Below, piece by piece: positions 10,133 through 45,670 of a DNA stretch of 64,000 nt. Each line of letters opens with the position of its first letter. The first letter of the stretch is position 1. This stretch comes from Macrophomina tecta (lineage: Eukaryota; Ascomycota; Dothideomycetes; Botryosphaeriales; Botryosphaeriaceae): the NCBI GenBank assembly GCA_024180945.1, contig JAKSGN010000006.1:2480001-2544000 (forward strand), given 5' to 3'. The notes beneath the pieces were generated by a model that was not told the origin of the DNA, ran no database searches, and saw only the letters and a list, made by a program, of their open reading frames with translations. The position numbers were made by a program, and so were the translations under genes.

Positions 10133-10560
10133 GGCAATGTTTGAGCGGGCTTTGATCGTGGTGGGGAGAGGAGAAGCGTGACGCTTGTGTGGAGGGGGGA
10201 AAAAAAAAGAGCGCTGAGGAGAGGAAGTAGAAACAGTGCATAATATACATAGGCCTTCCGGCACGGACAGGGGCCGAAGACACCCATTCATGTTCAATAC
10301 AGTCCGGCGCCGTACTCGAATGTCCCGTTCCATATCCGACCAGTAGCCGGTGCGGTTTCCGTGGCGAGCGAGCAAAGGTGGGCGTGGCGAGAACGAGGGC
10401 ACTCTTACACTATGCTAGCTGAGCTAGAAAGTGATTGCGTAAGGGCAATGGCTTGTAGTGACGACGAGAGGGCGCCTTGTAGGGGCGCAGTAGATGATCA
10501 ACAGTAGTAGTGGAGGAGAGGGCGCTTGAATGTTAGAGCAGTAAACTACCAAAGCATATA
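10133..10560. other. Intergenic to left transposon border
   Basis: The 3' flank of the transcription-factor gene up to the TA target duplication at 10559-10560. No gene is seen. Confidence 0.7.
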
Positions 10561-10604
10561 ACGTATCCCACAAGCGAGCGTGCCACACAAGCGAGTGTGC
10601 CACC
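10561..10604 (+). repeat. Left TIR of transposon copy 1
   Basis: A 44-nt terminal inverted repeat. Inside it are two near-identical direct units, CACAAGCGAGCGTGC and CACAAGCGAGTGTGC, probable transposase-binding sites by inference. Confidence 0.9.
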
Positions 10605-10641
10605 CAACCAAGAAAACGCGACACCCTAGCTTCAACCAACA

Positions 10642-12291
10642 ATGCATCAGCCAACCCACGCTCAATCCATCTTACATGAAGCTCAGATAGCTTTAGCGAA
10701 GCAAGCTATCGATCAAGGCCAAATTCAAAGCAATCGGCTCGCTGCAAAGACGTTTAACGTTAATCGGATGACCCTTAAGCGACGACGCGACAGGATTCCT
10801 TCTCGACGCGATTGCACGCCCAACTCTCGAAAGCTTACTAATATCGAGGAATCAGTTCTTGTCAAACGTGTCCTCGATCTAGATTCGCGAGGATTTCCGC
10901 CGCGATTAAGTGCTGTTGAAGGTATGGCAAATAAGCTACTCGCCGACCGCGCCGGAGGTACCGTTGGCAAGAACTGGCCCTCCAACTTCGTAAGACGGAC
11001 TCCCGAGCTAAAAACACGTCTGAATCGAAAGTATGACTATCAGCGAGCTAAATGCGAGGACCCAGAGCTTATCACGCAATGGTTTCAGCTCGTCCAGAAC
11101 ACTATCACGAAGTATGGGATCGTGAACGGTGACATCTACAACTTCGATGAAGCCGGCTTCCTCATGGGCATGATTGCAGCCGGAATGGTTGTCACAGCAT
11201 TGGAGCGACGCGCTCGACCCAAATCAGTCCAGCCAGGCAATCGCGAGTGGGTTACGGTGATCCAGGGAGTCAACGCCGAGGGCTGGGCGATTCCGCCGTT
11301 CGTGATTTTCAAGGGACAACACCACCTTTCTGCTTGGTACAGCGACGACGTACCAGGCAATTGGGTCATCGCATTAAGCGAAAACGGCTGGACGACGAAC
11401 GAGCTTGGTCTGCAGTGGCTGCAGCACTTCGAAAAGCACACAAAGGATCGCACAACTGGAGCATGGCGACTTCTGATTCTTGACGGCCACGCGAGCCACA
11501 ATTCGGCCGAATTCGACGCGTTCTGCCAGGAACGCAAGATCATCACGCTCTTCATGCCTGCGCATTCATCGCATCTCCTCCAGCCGCTCGATGTAGGCTG
11601 TTTTGCGCCTCTCAAGAAGGCGTACGGAAAGCAGGTTGAAGAGCTGATGCGATCTCACATCAACCACATCACGAAGCTCGAGTTTCTGCCTGCGTTCAAA
11701 ACGGCGTTCGAAGCCGCATTTACGCAGCAGAATATCGTAGGCGGGTTCCGAGGCGCAGGACTGGTCCCGCTCGATCCAGAGGCCGTGATTTCCAAGCTCG
11801 ATGTCAAGCTTCGGACGCCGACACGCCCGCAGGCAGAGGCCATAACTTGGGACGCTCAAACACCGCACAACCCAGCTGAATTAGCCTCTCAGACTGAGCT
11901 TATTAGGAACCGGATTGCAAAGCATCAGAACAGCTCACCAACGCCAATCAACGATGCGCTGAACCAGCTTGCTAAGGGGGCTCAAATGATGGCGCATTCG
12001 GCTGTTCTTCTGCAGGCGGAAGTCGCGAATCTTCAAAAGGCAAACGAGGCCGCAACGCGACGTAAAAAGCGGCAGAAAAAGCGGATTCAGAAGCGAGGGA
12101 CTCTTACGGTTCAGGAGGGGCAGTATTTAATCGATGGAGCTGCTGTTAACCAACAGATTTCGCGGGAAACGCGCCAAAGTGGTGCGCAATCGGAGGGGCC
12201 AGCGAGAAAACGACGGCGATGTGGGCAGTGCGGCGAAACTGGACATAATTCTCGTACATGTCAAAAAGGTGCGGAAACTACTGTAGAATAG
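10642..12291 (+). CDS. Fot1/pogo-type DDE transposase with C-terminal zinc knuckle (copy 1)
   Basis: 549 residues in one exon, cutting and pasting the element at TA sites. The N-terminus has a psq/CENP-B-type helix-turn-helix (LAAKTFNVNRMTLKRRRDR), then a Tc5/CENP-B-like DNA-binding region around residues 70-150. The DDE_1 catalytic core shows YNFDEAGF, LLILDGHASHNS and HLLQPLDVGCFAPLKKAYG; the last two aspartates are 35 residues apart (DD35D). After a Lys/Arg-rich stretch, the C-terminus carries a CCHC knuckle (CGQCGETGHNSRTC), unusual for classical Fot1 and a possible nucleic-acid contact. No stop, frameshift or RIP-like decay is seen, so it is likely active or recently active. Confidence 0.95.
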   Translation: MHQPTHAQSILHEAQIALAKQAIDQGQIQSNRLAAKTFNVNRMTLKRRRDRIPSRRDCTPNSRKLTNIEESVLVKRVLDLDSRGFPPRLSAVEGMANKLLADRAGGTVGKNWPSNFVRRTPELKTRLNRKYDYQRAKCEDPELITQWFQLVQNTITKYGIVNGDIYNFDEAGFLMGMIAAGMVVTALERRARPKSVQPGNREWVTVIQGVNAEGWAIPPFVIFKGQHHLSAWYSDDVPGNWVIALSENGWTTNELGLQWLQHFEKHTKDRTTGAWRLLILDGHASHNSAEFDAFCQERKIITLFMPAHSSHLLQPLDVGCFAPLKKAYGKQVEELMRSHINHITKLEFLPAFKTAFEAAFTQQNIVGGFRGAGLVPLDPEAVISKLDVKLRTPTRPQAEAITWDAQTPHNPAELASQTELIRNRIAKHQNSSPTPINDALNQLAKGAQMMAHSAVLLQAEVANLQKANEAATRRKKRQKKRIQKRGTLTVQEGQYLIDGAAVNQQISRETRQSGAQSEGPARKRRRCGQCGETGHNSRTCQKGAETTVE

Positions 12292-12366
12292 CGTACCTAT
12301 TAGAAATAGTCGATTTTGCAGGACGTTGCAGAGTTAGTTGTACTTAAAGTGGGTTGGGTTTGGTAA

Positions 12367-12410
12367 GGTGGCACACTCGCTTATGTGGCACGCTCGCTTG
12401 TGGGATACGT
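12367..12410 (-). repeat. Right TIR of transposon copy 1
   Basis: The inverse of the left TIR with one difference (CATAAGCGAG in place of CACAAGCGAG). It is followed by the TA duplication. Confidence 0.9.
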
Positions 12411-12737
12411 TAGTAGATGAAGTCAACACAGACTATGATCCCACTGAAGAGCAATGGCTAACATGTCACAGCTTACCAGTCAATTTAGCCAGCCGGATTC
12501 CATGAAGGGCAGTTCCAGGGGACAGTCAGGGTTCAGGTGTGTTCATAATCGTAGACAGAAGTATGTACAATGATAGAACAGAACATCTCCGCTGACCACG
12601 TCGAAGCTGCGTGCCGCGAAAACAACTTGGGATATGTACTTTCAGAACTTCATAACCACCATCGCCAGTCAAAGACAGATTCTTTTCGTACGAGATTTTC
12701 GTTTCACTACGCCGGGCAGTTGAGAAGAGTCAATCAC
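12411..12737. other. Short intergenic stretch, no gene seen
   Basis: The flank between the transposon and the 3' end of the RNase gene. No supported feature. Confidence 0.6.
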
Positions 12738-18258: not shown

Positions 18259-20867
18259 TCACACAATCTTCCACCTAGCCAGCCTCCCCACAGCCTCCCC
18301 CGCATTTCTCACAATGCACAACGTATCCACACTCTTCTTCCCGCTCAGCCCTTCCACCAACTTCTTGAGCACAACACTTCCAACCGCCGTCGGCTTACCC
18401 TCACCAAGATTGAAATTACCGGCTGTGACGAACCCAATCAAATCACCCTTTTCTGGCACGGGCGGGTAGTCTGCAGTACCTGGCTGAGGTTCCTTCGTAT
18501 CATCACTCAACAAACTTGCTGCGAGGAAGGCTTGCTGCACGTGCTCGGGTGCGTCAGGGGCTGGCTTGCGCGGCAGCTGAGTAGCCTTCTTCTTCTGACC
18601 TGGCTTAGCTTTCGGATCAGGGAAGAGGGCAAGCCATTTTTTGCGAAGCTCTTCGTCTGTAGTAGGTAAGCGGTAGATGCGGGCGCAGTCTTTGGGTGTG
18701 CCGCGCGATACTATGGTGAGGCAGACATTAGAAAGGGCGGTGTTGGCATTGGGAATGGTGTCGGTGCTGCGCGAGGTGGTGGCTTCTTCGGCGAGAGAAG
18801 GGGGGACATGATAGAATGCTGGCTCATGGTTGGTGCCGTCATCTGCCTGCAGGTTAATATTCAAGTTACCTCTCCTAAACAGCTGCCAATAGACTTACCA
18901 GGCGAATCATCAGCATCTGCGCGCAATGTCCCCCAATCGCAAGCCCAACCTTTGCCTACCTCACCCTTCCGCCCCTCAGCCAGCCGCAAGCTGCCCCACT
19001 CGAACCTCTTCCCCTTTGGTCTCCTTTCCCATTCCGCTTTTCGCTTTTCCGTCTCCCGCTCATCCCAATCCTTTCCTGCCTTCGTGCCTGGATAATCGGC
19101 TGGGAAGAAAGGTACTCCGGCTTCGAATGCTAGCTGTTTCTTCTGATTTAGGCCACCAAACCGCACGTTGGCGCCAGTTGATAACGGATAGTACATGAGC
19201 GAATTCCAAATCGGAGAAACGCACTTCCAAGGTAAAAGCAGTGTCCAAGTTCCACTACCTGGTCCAGTCGTGCGAGATGCGAAGAGCAAAATCGGGATTG
19301 CGGGATCGTTTGGCTGCGGCTCAGGATATGTGTTCGGCATCGCTGCAGCTTTCCGACGGTTGATCGATTTTTGGCTGGGAAGTGTACGCGAAGCATCCAA
19401 ACGCTTCTTGCGGCAGAACAGGGCTGGTGCATTTTGCGTGCGATCCGGTGGCCAACTTGAGAGAACGCTCATTAAACGAGAGTGGGACTCCTTGTCGTTG
19501 GGGAGATCAATGGTACGGGGCGGATGGTGGAGTCTGGGGTCTGATATCTCAAATCCCAGGACAGGATTAGGCGGCAGTGCTCCCAAATTGGTGACGGATA
19601 CCAGGTCCTTCCACACGGTGCTAGGGCTGTCTTTAGCATTGTTTGTGTTGATGGGCCACAAGACACCGCGCAAGGCCTCGGTAGCTCCGGGTCCGGTGAT
19701 TTCGATACTTCCGATCTCCCACCGAAGATCTTCGACAGTGACCGGTGGGTTGATTTTGCGAATTGCGTCCCACAATTCCAGAAAAGCTGATGGGTGTATC
19801 CGTATCAACACATGTCTTCGGTCTTTCTTTTCAGATGGAGCGACACCAGCAGCAGCATCTGCCATCTCCAAGCCCTCCGTTTTCGGTTTGGCACACCAAA
19901 TGACCGTAACTGGGGCAATAGCCTTCTCAGGCCATCCGCCCTTCGCATACAACCATCCATCCCATGTTCGGGTACCATCCCTCCATTTCTGGCCGCTCTT
20001 GGCCCAGTTGCCCACACCGAAATCTTCCAGCAGCTTTACTAGATGCCTTTCCAATCCATGCAACCCGATAGTCGACATATAACTCATATCCCAAGCTACA
20101 GCACCCCTCGCAGTACTCGCTCTATGTGTTGGCCGGTAACACTTCATCGTAGGCGCCAAAGGTATTGCGAAACGCCACAACGGTTCGAGGGGAGGGGTCA
20201 TGTGCGCACGCTTCGAGTGGAACATGTGTGTCGGGAGCCATTGCTTATTCAACTGGCGTTTGCGGAACTTCGCTGGCGGGGTCGGTGGGTTCTTGAGCTT
20301 GGAGGTCTTGACACGTGCTTCTCGAGTCTTGATGGTATCGTCCACCGGCGCGACCGTAACTTCCATATCTCCCTCCTCCTCATTCTTTCCCTCTTCCTTG
20401 CCATCTTTTTTTGCCTGACCTGCTTTCCTCTTCTCTCTGAGCTTTCGAAGTGTCTGAAGCCTCTTCGCATTATCCAGCCTTAGCCTCTGATGGCCACTTG
20501 GCTTCCTCCTCCTCGCAGTCACCGTGGGCGTGTTATCCTCCAGCATCTCCCTCGCGGCCCTTGCGCGTAGCCTCTTCGGCACGCGTTTGACATTGTGACT
20601 CGCCGTCCTGCGCCGCAGCTCCCTCGGAACACCCTGGAAAGCGCGAGCCGTGAGACCCTTGCGCGCCTTGTTCATCGCATCTTCCAGAGCTTTAATCTCG
20701 AATTCGCGCGCCTTGACGAACTTATCGACATCGACCTCGCCGTTCTTGAAAGCGGTGCCGGTGCTCTGTGTCGCGATCGAGCGAGCGTCACGCGTCTTCG
20801 CGCGCTTGCGGTCGCGGCCATTTTGGCCCTGTTGTTTCGACGGAGGTTGTTTGCGTTTGTCGGCCAT
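18259..20867 (-). CDS. POP1: RNase P/MRP protein subunit POP1
   Basis: The largest protein of nuclear RNase P and RNase MRP, needed for tRNA 5' processing and pre-rRNA cleavage. Two exons: 20867-18899 and 18842-18259 (GTAAGT...GGCAG, phase G|AT), giving 850 residues. The N-terminal Lys/Arg-rich POP1 domain contains FKNGEVDVDKFVKAREFEIKA-type sequence, RAFQGVPRELRRRTASHN and WLPTHMFHSKRAHM. The middle has GLERHLVKLL. The POPLD domain includes PWKCVSPIWNSLMYYPLS and the conserved WERRPKGKR. The C-terminal exon has GDLIGFVTAGNFNLGEGKP, typical of the family's end. The Met at 20867 (MADKRKQPP) is chosen over upstream in-frame codons because the preceding part looks like leader. It is divergent from the WBP11-like gene. 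Confidence 0.94.
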
Positions 20868-21292
20868 GGTGGCGTCGGCGGCGGACGTGCAGGCACGGGT
20901 GCCCGGGCGGTGTTGCGGGGGCGCGGTCGAGCTGACGGGCGGGCGCGTGGGAAATTTCCTTTGGGGCGCGCGATGGACTTGCGAGGATGAAAGCGCGCAC
21001 GCACGTGAAAAAAAGGTGAAGTCATTGCTCGGCGGCCGGTGAACACCCCAGCCCAGCTTCAAAGCTTCCCTCCGGCCTTGACAAGCACACCCAGCACGCA
21101 ACTACCACCTCTCCCGCCGAATTACCTGCCCCAATCGCTAGCCCCCAGACCGCAGCGCCCTTGACACAGCGCCGAGCACCCAGCCCTTACCGCCGACACC
21201 AAAGACTTACCTCCGCAACGAGCCAATCCTCTCCACGCGCCTCGAGCGCCGCCTCCAACCCCTCCTAACCCTCCACACACCGCCCCACAACC
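20868..21292. promoter_or_regulatory. Divergent promoter POP1 / WBP11-like
   Basis: 425 bp, GC-rich, between the two start codons. Both genes act in nuclear RNA processing, so a shared bidirectional promoter is plausible by inference. Confidence 0.55.
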
Positions 21293-28862: not shown

Positions 28863-29110
28863 AGTGCCTAAGAAAAGGGATAATGTACCTACGATATCAT
28901 TGTGGAGAATAACAGCTGCCTACAGGAGGTTGTAGGGCGTTACGGGCAGATGACAGGTAAATTCAGCGAGCCTGTAATGGATATTAGCAGATCAGCTTTG
29001 GCAGCTACGCTGATGTCATGTGGCATGAAGCAACTCAAACCGTCAACAATAGAAGCCAATGAGCAAATAAAAATTCACAATTAGCACAACTTTGTTTTTA
29101 TGTTCTTTTA
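28863..29110. other. ARPC4 3' flank up to transposon
   Basis: AT-rich 3' region ending in the TA target duplication at 29109-29110. No gene is seen. Confidence 0.7.
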
Positions 29111-29154
29111 ACGTATCCCACAAGCGAGCGTGCCACACAAGCGAGTGTGCCACC
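29111..29154 (+). repeat. Left TIR of transposon copy 2
   Basis: Identical to the left TIR of copy 1, with the same pair of internal 15-nt direct units. Confidence 0.9.
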
Positions 29155-29191
29155 CAACCAAGAAAACGCGACACCCTAGCTTCAACCAACA

Positions 29192-30841
29192 ATGCATCAG
29201 CCAACCCACGCTCAATCCATCTTACATGAAGCTCAGATAGCTTTAGCGAAGCAAGCTATCGATCAAGGCCAAATTCAAAGCAATCGGCTCGCTGCAAAGA
29301 CGTTTAACGTTAATCGGATGACCCTTAAGCGACGACGCGACAGGATTCCTTCTCGACGCGATTGCACGCCCAACTCTCGAAAGCTTACTAATATCGAGGA
29401 ATCAGTTCTTGTCAAACGTGTCCTCGATCTAGATTCGCGAGGATTTCCGCCGCGATTAAGTGCTGTTGAAGGTATGGCAAATAAGCTACTCGCCGACCGC
29501 GCCGGAGGTACCGTTGGCAAGAACTGGCCCTCCAACTTCGTAAGACGGACTCCCGAGCTAAAAACACGTCTGAATCGAAAGTATGACTATCAGCGAGCTA
29601 AATGCGAGGACCCAGAGCTTATCACGCAATGGTTTCAGCTCGTCCAGAACACTATCACGAAGTATGGGATCGTGAACGGTGACATCTACAACTTCGATGA
29701 AGCCGGCTTCCTCATGGGCATGATTGCAGCCGGAATGGTTGTCACAGCATTGGAGCGACGCGCTCGACCCAAATCAGTCCAGCCAGGCAATCGCGAGTGG
29801 GTTACGGTGATCCAGGGAGTCAACGCCGAGGGCTGGGCGATTCCGCCGTTCGTGATTTTCAAGGGACAACACCACCTTTCTGCTTGGTACAGCGACGACG
29901 TACCAGGCAATTGGGTCATCGCATTAAGCGAAAACGGCTGGACGACGAACGAGCTTGGTCTGCAGTGGCTGCAGCACTTCGAAAAGCACACAAAGGATCG
30001 CACAACTGGAGCATGGCGACTTCTGATTCTTGACGGCCACGCGAGCCACAATTCGGCCGAATTCGACGCGTTCTGCCAGGAACGCAAGATCATCACGCTC
30101 TTCATGCCTGCGCATTCATCGCATCTCCTCCAGCCGCTCGATGTAGGCTGTTTTGCGCCTCTCAAGAAGGCGTACGGAAAGCAGGTTGAAGAGCTGATGC
30201 GATCTCACATCAACCACATCACGAAGCTCGAGTTTCTGCCTGCGTTCAAAACGGCGTTCGAAGCCGCATTTACGCAGCAGAATATCGTAGGCGGGTTCCG
30301 AGGCGCAGGACTGGTCCCGCTCGATCCAGAGGCCGTGATTTCCAAGCTCGATGTCAAGCTTCGGACGCCGACACGCCCGCAGGCAGAGGCCATAACTTGG
30401 GACGCTCAAACACCGCACAACCCAGCTGAATTAGCCTCTCAGACTGAGCTTATTAGGAACCGGATTGCAAAGCATCAGAACAGCTCACCAACGCCAATCA
30501 ACGATGCGCTGAACCAGCTTGCTAAGGGGGCTCAAATGATGGCGCATTCGGCTGTTCTTCTGCAGGCGGAAGTCGCGAATCTTCAAAAGGCAAACGAGGC
30601 CGCAACGCGACGTAAAAAGCGGCAGAAAAAGCGGATTCAGAAGCGAGGGACTCTTACGGTTCAGGAGGGGCAGTATTTAATCGATGGAGCTGCTGTTAAC
30701 CAACAGATTTCGCGGGAAACGCGCCAAAGTGGTGCGCAATCGGAGGGGCCAGCGAGAAAACGACGGCGATGTGGGCAGTGCGGCGAAACTGGACATAATT
30801 CTCGTACATGTCAAAAAGGTGCGGAAACTACTGTAGAATAG
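29192..30841 (+). CDS. Fot1/pogo-type DDE transposase with zinc knuckle (copy 2)
   Basis: 549 residues, identical to the copy 1 product throughout: helix-turn-helix N-terminus, DD35D catalytic core with YNFDEAGF, LLILDGHAS and QPLDVGCFAPLK, and a CCHC knuckle near the C-terminus. The frame is intact and presumably functional. Two equal sources of transposase lie within 20 kb. Confidence 0.95.
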   Translation: MHQPTHAQSILHEAQIALAKQAIDQGQIQSNRLAAKTFNVNRMTLKRRRDRIPSRRDCTPNSRKLTNIEESVLVKRVLDLDSRGFPPRLSAVEGMANKLLADRAGGTVGKNWPSNFVRRTPELKTRLNRKYDYQRAKCEDPELITQWFQLVQNTITKYGIVNGDIYNFDEAGFLMGMIAAGMVVTALERRARPKSVQPGNREWVTVIQGVNAEGWAIPPFVIFKGQHHLSAWYSDDVPGNWVIALSENGWTTNELGLQWLQHFEKHTKDRTTGAWRLLILDGHASHNSAEFDAFCQERKIITLFMPAHSSHLLQPLDVGCFAPLKKAYGKQVEELMRSHINHITKLEFLPAFKTAFEAAFTQQNIVGGFRGAGLVPLDPEAVISKLDVKLRTPTRPQAEAITWDAQTPHNPAELASQTELIRNRIAKHQNSSPTPINDALNQLAKGAQMMAHSAVLLQAEVANLQKANEAATRRKKRQKKRIQKRGTLTVQEGQYLIDGAAVNQQISRETRQSGAQSEGPARKRRRCGQCGETGHNSRTCQKGAETTVE

Positions 30842-30916
30842 CGTACCTATTAGAAATAGTCGATTTTGCAGGACGTTGCAGAGTTAGTTGTACTTAAAGT
30901 GGGTTGGGTTTGGTAA

Positions 30917-30960
30917 GGTGGCACACTCGCTTATGTGGCACGCTCGCTTGTGGGATACGT
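30917..30960 (-). repeat. Right TIR of transposon copy 2
   Basis: Same as the right TIR of copy 1, including the single mismatch to the left TIR. Followed by TA. Confidence 0.9.
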
Positions 30961-31141
30961 TAATATTTAAGCTTGTCGCCATCTTGATCACCTTGAGTGT
31001 ATTCCTATTCGCCTTACGCTTCGCATTGACTGCATAGCAAAACATTGAATTCTAACGTAAGTTAACCGGCGGTCCAATGCCGGGACGAAATTAAAAGTTC
31101 AACCACACCACCATTCCCCAACCCCCTTCTCGTGAGAGCAT

Positions 31142-44774: not shown

Positions 44775-44902
44775 AGCTGCGTGGCGCAGCGGAAGCGGTA
44801 AGTCATTACAACAGCCTGGACCAAGCAATTCAATCAACTAACATCCTCAATAGCGCCGGGCTCATAACCCGGAGGACAATGGATCGAAACCATTCGCAGC
44901 TA
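44775..44902 (+). tRNA. Initiator tRNA-Met (CAT) split by a spliceosomal-type intron in the D stem
   Basis: 5' part 44775-44797 (23 nt), insert 44798-44853 (56 nt), 3' part 44854-44902. Joined, they form a 72-nt tRNA with all stems paired: acceptor AGCTGCG/CGCAGCT with discriminator A, D stem GCGC/GCGC, anticodon stem CCGGG/CCCGG with loop CTCATAA, T stem AATGG/CCATT. Initiator marks are all present: A1:U72, three G:C pairs next to the anticodon loop, and A54/A60 in the loop ATCGAAA instead of TTC. A box (TGGCGCAGCGG) and B box (GGATCGAAACC) are intact. The split falls between positions 24 and 25, not at 37/38 where tRNA endonuclease introns lie. It is likely transcribed by Pol III, with a terminator just downstream. 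Confidence 0.9.
44798..44853 (+). other. Spliceosomal-type intron inside the tRNA-iMet gene
   Basis: The 56-nt insert begins GTAAGT (perfect U2-type donor), has AACTAAC (branch site) about 14 nt before its end, and ends CAATAG. Length and signals match mRNA introns of neighbouring genes, such as the ISA1 intron with its ACTAAC branch. The only other boundary giving the same tRNA is a one-base shift (GG...TA), which lacks splice signals. Confidence 0.85.
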
Positions 44903-44910
44903 ATGCTTTC

Positions 44911-44931
44911 TTTTTGCAATATTTTTTTTTT
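44911..44931 (+). terminator. Pol III terminator of tRNA-iMet
   Basis: T5 at 44911-44915, nine bases past the tRNA end, backed by a T10 run at 44922-44931. Confidence 0.8.
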
Positions 44932-45598: not shown

Positions 45599-45670
45599 TG
45601 CCCCCTATCGGAGTCGAACCGATGGCCTCGACATTACTAGTGTCGCGCTCTACCACTGAGCTAAAGGGGC
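45599..45670 (-). tRNA. tRNA-Thr (AGT)
   Basis: 72 nt without an intron. Acceptor GCCCCTT/AGGGGGC (one T:G wobble) with discriminator A, D stem GCTC/GAGC, anticodon stem CGACA/TGTCG with loop CTAGTAA (anticodon AGT, read as IGU), T stem ATCGG/CCGAT with loop TTCGACT. A and B boxes are standard. It lies 0.7 kb from the split initiator tRNA on the opposite strand. Confidence 0.95.

Follow-up and report, generated by a model that had tools for sequence, protein, structure and literature searches.

Canonical nuclear tRNA introns lie between positions 37 and 38 and are cut by the Sen endonuclease. Can a nuclear tRNA gene that is instead interrupted in its D stem, by an insert of the mRNA type, be a working gene, and could the spliceosome be what matures its product? 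The question was raised by an initiator tRNA-Met gene at positions 44775-44902 (+) of the window, i.e., the whole 64,000-nt stretch of the Macrophomina tecta genome analysed here, which is split between tRNA positions 24 and 25 by a 56-nt insert (Table 1). The first-pass annotation had described this insert as bounded by GTAAGT and TAG and as containing AACTAAC. Both its coordinates and its anatomy were correct, and so was the branch motif; only the spacing had to be amended, as 12 nt, rather than about 14, follow the branch A.

Joining the two exons gave the 72-mer that had been proposed, with 21 of 21 cloverleaf pairs. Eukaryotic initiator tRNAs-Met are characterized by an A1:U72 pair, three G:C pairs closing the anticodon loop, A54 and A60, and the joined molecule displays all of these hallmarks (A1:U72, G29-31:C39-41, A54 and A60). 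The A box, the B box and the T5 run, which had likewise been called intact, could be read at the positions listed in Table 1, the two boxes being identified by their consensus. As for the surroundings of the gene, an intact tRNA-Thr(AGU) gene lies some 700 bp downstream on the opposite strand (45599-45670, -), and 18861-21101 (-) encodes a homologue of POP1, the RNase P/MRP subunit that itself takes part in tRNA processing. The window also holds two copies (10559-12412 and 29109-30962), identical over 1854 bp, of a transposon-like element with terminal inverted repeats, flanking TA and a 549-aa DDE_1 transposase; this element has probably been active recently. Two of the proteins encoded in the window are 98% identical to those of Macrophomina phaseolina, which places the genome in that species or a near relative (Botryosphaeriales, Dothideomycetes).

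Table 1. Features of the interrupted initiator tRNA-Met gene (window coordinates) and of the interrupted tRNA-Arg(UCU) gene (coordinates on contig C2).
Feature	Position	Strand	Remark
Initiator tRNA-Met exon 1 (tRNA positions 1-24)	44775-44797	+	sequence; 23 nt
A box (TGGCGCAGCGG), entirely within exon 1	44782-44792	+	read from sequence
56-nt insert, spliceosomal-type intron between 24 and 25	44798-44853	+	GTAAGT...AACTAAC...AATAG
5' splice site GTAAGT (predicted)	44798-44803	+	sequence
Branch-site motif ACTAAC	44837-44842	+	presumed branch A at 44841, 12 nt before intron end
3' splice site TAG (predicted)	44851-44853	+	sequence
Initiator tRNA-Met exon 2 (positions 25-73)	44854-44902	+	anticodon CAT at 44863-44865
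B box (GGATCGAAACC), in exon 2	44881-44891	+	read from sequence
T5 run, Pol III terminator-like	44911-44915	+	starts 9 nt behind gene
tRNA-Arg(UCU) exon 1	C2:1075230-1075220	-	11 nt
tRNA-Arg(UCU) insert, 54 nt, at 11/12	C2:1075219-1075166	-	GTATGT...TACTAAC...TAG
tRNA-Arg(UCU) exon 2	C2:1075165-1075105	-	sequence

We searched the whole assembly (54.1 Mb in 37 contigs, one of which, the 125-kb C17, has a dense tRNA cluster and looks mitochondrial) for other forms of the gene. BLAST with the joined tRNA returned four matches, on contigs C6, C18, C35 and C37, each aligning exon 2 only, and a pattern composed of exon 1, GTAAG and ACTRAC picked out exactly those four initiator genes over the assembly. 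In each of them the insert sits at the identical nucleotide (24/25), and each has A1:U72, the three G:C pairs closing the anticodon loop, CAT, A54 and A60. An intact initiator junction, with up to three mismatches allowed, occurs nowhere in the 54.1 Mb, nor does the initiator pattern with a gap of 0-30 nt occur in the assembly; with the BLAST matches confined to exon 2, we rejected the presence there of an intact initiator paralogue. The exon-1 core had six exact matches in the assembly, namely the four initiator genes and two sites without resemblance to a tRNA. At up to two mismatches it matched 131 sites; a B box was looked for at 30 of these and seen in the four initiator tRNAs only; the anticodon stem gave 26 one-mismatch matches, and none of the 16 inspected had a B box.

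The first-pass annotation had itself suggested that a whole-assembly count of intact iMet copies might speak against it. The direct count came out the opposite way, with 4 of 4 genes interrupted and none intact. Since three further initiator genes, on three other contigs, have the interrupted form, an assembly error is very unlikely. Some other searches were less telling. A query with yeast elongator-Met tRNA had no match, a result that is uninformative. The pattern scan of bacterial and archaeal genomes yielded one match, which had no initiator exon 2 in the surrounding 8 kb and was taken as chance. Viral contigs contained neither the interrupted form nor the intact control, so that the viral zero is uninformative.

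A second interrupted family came from a partial tRNA-model match (C2:1075113-1075168), the sole partial one among at least 60 matches listed. It belongs to a tRNA-Arg(UCU) gene on the minus strand of contig C2 (1075230-1075105), which is also split by an mRNA-type insert. The joined exons form a 72-mer with 21 of 21 pairs (three of them G-U, in the acceptor stem, and nine formed across the junction), whose minimum-energy fold is the cloverleaf, at -28.0 kcal/mol. BLAST with Arg exon 2 and a few flanking bases matched one place in the genome, and the pattern for an intact Arg junction, at up to three mismatches, found only the interrupted C2 place in the genome. The UCU anticodon is required for decoding AGA codons. 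AGA makes up 1 of 17 Arg codons in one ORF of the window and 5 of 74 in a second, so the codon is used and tRNA-Arg(UCU) should be needed. In a joint alignment of the initiator and Arg genes, the introns did not line up. Our tRNA census scored 63 of 1323 candidates, so further interrupted tRNA families may exist.

The inserts of the five interrupted genes measure 54-58 nt. Group I and group II introns were rejected as candidates because their size limits far exceed these lengths. In all five inserts (four initiator and one Arg), GTRNG directly follows the upstream junction and YAG directly precedes the downstream one, and each contains a CTRAC motif whose branch A lies 12 nt before the end, the spacing in the Arg insert being equal to that in the initiator inserts; the latter all keep GTAAG, ACTRAC and YAG, with the branch A again exactly 12 nt from the end. 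When the window insert was subjected to mononucleotide shuffling, 1 of 200000 shuffles reached GTRNG..CTRAC..YAG, and across the genes the full signal set arose in 1-3 of 200000 shuffled inserts per gene. The window contains a single occurrence of the strict pattern, at the initiator gene, against 0.03 per shuffle (60 shuffles). One might still invoke a chance resemblance or an assembly error, given that the window is rich in matches to the loose intron consensus (35 occurrences versus a shuffle mean of 21.4, with sd 6.6 and a largest value of 39), and a loose match alone accordingly proves little. With five loci on five contigs, and signals so rarely reached by shuffled inserts, we consider this explanation extremely improbable.

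The mRNA introns of SDH1, a window gene placed with the M. phaseolina protein, provided a comparison. They start with GTATGA, GTACAT, GTAAGA and GTGGGT, contain the branch-like motifs CTGAT, CTGAC, CTAAC and CTGAC at 12-26 nt from their ends, and end in NAG (a fifth called intron, with a weak GTCCGG start, was left out of the comparison). The tRNA inserts employ signals of the same kinds, and in these they look no worse than this small set of mRNA introns.

A different picture was offered by the ordinary tRNA introns of the same genome, of which there are at least 28 among the matches listed, assigned by ARAGORN to the anticodon loop or its vicinity (one of the 28, at locus L080, is probably misplaced). 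These canonical introns differ from the inserts in site, and none of the 28 examined has GT..AG, even allowing a slide of 3 nt. They range from 9 to 61 nt in length (28 genes, L026-L028 and L065-L089), and copies of tRNA-Gly(GCC) have introns of 30, 39, 49 and 61 nt.

From the many ordinary tRNA introns it follows that the Sen enzyme must be present, and the inserts, too, might be removed by Sen and ligase acting ectopically, in the manner of Cyanidioschyzon merolae, with the GT-AG ends being incidental. C. merolae and nucleomorphs are indeed described as having introns outside 37/38, including ones in the D arm (PMC9602550, PMC4090602). According to PMC4090602, those of C. merolae are tied to bulge-helix-bulge sites and the splicing endonuclease, and the nucleomorph inserts (3-24 nt) have no known removal route. 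The present inserts differ from both: they lack the strict helix and carry spliceosomal signals. When the bulge-helix-bulge was scored in its strict form, the 4-bp helix had 1 of 4 pairs in all four initiator genes and 2 of 4 in the Arg gene, and strict removal of this kind was rejected for all five genes. Upon sliding, the initiator genes attained a 4-bp helix at 1 of 49 offsets only, with the 5' junction inside the helix and not in a bulge; the Arg gene did so at 3 of 49. Furthermore, the inserts sit at 24/25 (four initiator genes) and 11/12 (Arg) rather than at the 37/38 of Sen introns, and 5 of 5 carry GTRNG, CTRAC and YAG at fixed spacing, as opposed to 0 of 28 ordinary introns with GT..AG. 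Removal by Sen is, in our judgement, very unlikely, and excision by the spliceosome remains our preferred reading.

The four initiator genes could also be compared with one another, exons and inserts separately. Of the 21 stem pairs, four vary among the genes, each fully compensated on both sides, and two of these (acceptor-stem pairs 6 and 7) bridge the junction, pairing exon 1 with exon 2. The remaining exon differences are two, both in the variable loop of the C37 gene. The insert bodies, compared after excluding the first 6 and the last 17 nt, are 54-66% identical over all six pairs of genes, versus shuffle means of 54-58%. Pairs involving the C35 gene lie about 1-1.6 standard deviations above the shuffles, so a trace of common ancestry of the inserts is possible. 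The C6 and C18 genes have identical exons (72/72) and insert bodies that are 54% identical (shuffle mean, 58%); exact exons around shuffled-like intron bodies would be left by strong purifying selection or by exon-only gene conversion. No T4 run was seen inside the introns, a result matched by 52% of the shuffle trials, and this absence is thus no evidence for selection against T4.

The compensated stem changes and the conserved signals are direct observations, and the contrast between exons and inserts is what selection on the spliced tRNA would leave, unlike the pattern of decaying pseudogenes. A sceptic could nonetheless hold that the interrupted genes are pseudogenes and that intact initiator genes reside in DNA absent from the assembly. 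Assemblies can miss DNA, and a D-arm insertion in a eukaryotic tRNA gene is usually read as the mark of a pseudogene; the review concerned gives as its reason that such insertions occur mostly in one of many synonymous genes (PMC4090602). Here, on the contrary, no intact gene accompanies them: all four copies are interrupted and none in the assembly is intact. In addition, two copies have exons identical over 72 nt, the in-stem differences are all compensated, and the splice signals are kept while the insert bodies are near random. Uncompensated stem changes with intact copies elsewhere, by which tRNA pseudogenes may be told, were not found for the initiator genes. We therefore give the pseudogene explanation very little credence, and continue to treat the loci as working genes.

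Which polymerase would transcribe them? All four initiator genes have A and B boxes, and T-runs begin at +9, +14 and +10 behind three of them, the first T-run of the C37 gene coming only at +48; behind the Arg gene, there is a T-run at +11. These features suggest that transcription is probably by Pol III. In the Arg gene, the A box is split by the insert (TATATAAA is found at -38, i.e., 38 nt upstream), and consequently this gene would need another promoter element. The split box, and the usual coupling of spliceosomal splicing to Pol II, could be accommodated by a variant of our explanation, overlapping with it in odds, in which the spliceosome acts on Pol II read-through transcripts and the Pol III transcript yields no mature tRNA. 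Beyond the boxes and T-runs just listed, this variant is countered by the U6 RNA of S. pombe, which is made by Pol III and spliced by the spliceosome, showing that Pol III transcripts are spliceable (PMC8917221). Splicing of Pol II transcripts exclusively appears unlikely to us, and we retain the Pol III precursor as the probable substrate. The single U6 match in the genome studied here is without an intron.

Predicted folding was less decisive. For the four joined initiator tRNAs, the predicted minimum-energy fold is 0.9-1.9 kcal/mol more stable than the strict cloverleaf, so that folding alone does not single out the cloverleaf. Before splicing, the four initiator RNAs, folded freely, are no more stable than shuffles (z from -0.2 to -0.8). 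The C35 insert showed a peculiarity of its own, as it contains AGTTGAA, able to pair 7/7 with the 3' acceptor strand. This level was reached by 1.2% of shuffles; the inserts of the other three initiator genes attain 4 or 5 pairs, like most shuffles. The Rfam model moreover recognized a tRNA-like form that starts inside the C35 insert (40.1 bits; 1472-1550 of the extracted locus L034), in which the D loop is long and one position of the D stem is unpaired. Both may be chance, given that four genes were tested, and we take them, unproven, as such; a rival fold of the C35 precursor may nevertheless exist.

Automated tRNA finders dealt poorly with these loci. In the window, the neighbouring tRNA-Thr was all that either the Rfam tRNA model or ARAGORN (run without introns) reported. 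With introns allowed, ARAGORN called the window gene with the same ends as "tRNA-Cys (aca)" with a 34-nt intron, which is a wrong reading. Overall, ARAGORN detected 0 of 4 initiator genes without introns and 1 of 4 with introns (as the wrong tRNA), in the latter mode missing the Arg gene, and the Rfam model detected 1 of 4, which it misread by starting within the insert, and part of the Arg gene. Interrupted initiator genes can, in other words, be missed by tRNA finders.

As to precedents, the U6 snRNAs of S. pombe and of other fungi, where mRNA-type introns occur too, resemble the present case in being noncoding Pol III transcripts with a spliceosomal intron (here predicted from sequence); they differ in that U6 is itself a part of the spliceosome, whereas the hosts here are tRNAs. 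Nuclear rRNA is a large RNA, transcribed by Pol I from many gene copies, and differs in these respects from the tRNA hosts. It shares with them the mRNA-type intron in a fungal noncoding RNA gene, spliceosomal-type introns in ascomycete nuclear rRNA genes being the subject of a title cited in PMC11782384. The first-pass annotation knew of no described nuclear tRNA of this kind, and we, too, recognized no spliceosomal intron in a nuclear tRNA gene among the open-access matches listed (a scope to which subscription journals are largely external); within it, a spliceosomal route of nuclear tRNA maturation has no precedent that we could find. The tRNA-intron review does not contain the word stem "spliceosom" (PMC4090602). 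The M. phaseolina genome paper has one "tRNA" passage outside the references, a tRNAscan-SE search in the methods (PMC3477038), and for A. niger two listed Met tRNAs are intronless, their initiator identity not being stated in that portion of the source (PMC6108506). What would be new is hence the class of host gene, the nuclear tRNA; the machinery is already known.

In the explanation that we favour, the interrupted loci would be working nuclear tRNA genes, probably transcribed by Pol III, whose precursors would have their D stem interrupted by a U2-type (GT-AG) intron of 54-58 nt. The spliceosome would excise this intron, using GUAAG or GUAUG as the 5' site, ACURAC as the branch site and a YAG 12 nt on, to give standard initiator tRNA-Met and, from the other locus, tRNA-Arg(UCU). 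Pol III transcription, spliceosomal removal and dependence on it are what we infer from the gene structures, which were read directly. That Pol III tRNA precursors are spliced by the spliceosome in this way, like S. pombe U6, seems to us highly likely. The earlier suggestion that initiation may depend on the spliceosome gains support from the interruption of 4 of 4 genes, the retention of the signals and the compensation of the stem changes. Weighing against the explanation are the shortness of exon 1 in both families (23 nt in the initiator genes and 11 nt in the Arg gene), the split Arg A box, the late T-run of C37, the intronless U6, the pairing and tRNA-like form of the C35 insert and the initiator cloverleaf lying above the predicted minimum.

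With no intact initiator or tRNA-Arg(UCU) gene found in the assembly, it is probable that start-codon recognition and AGA decoding both require the spliceosome to process tRNA precursors. We judge it likely, from the genomic sequence, that all of the cytosolic initiator tRNA-Met and the sole tRNA-Arg(UCU) of this fungus are made only via the spliceosome, with both functions directly dependent on it, and that further tRNA families of the lineage may be interrupted and missed by finders. The inserts supply a clear sequence rule for searching other genomes. If the explanation is true, the system would offer a naturally essential test of the splicing of uncapped Pol III transcripts, for which U6 is, to our knowledge, the known precedent. 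An essential tRNA of translation would then depend on the spliceosome, and initiation in this organism would be tied to splicing capacity and to splicing inhibitors.
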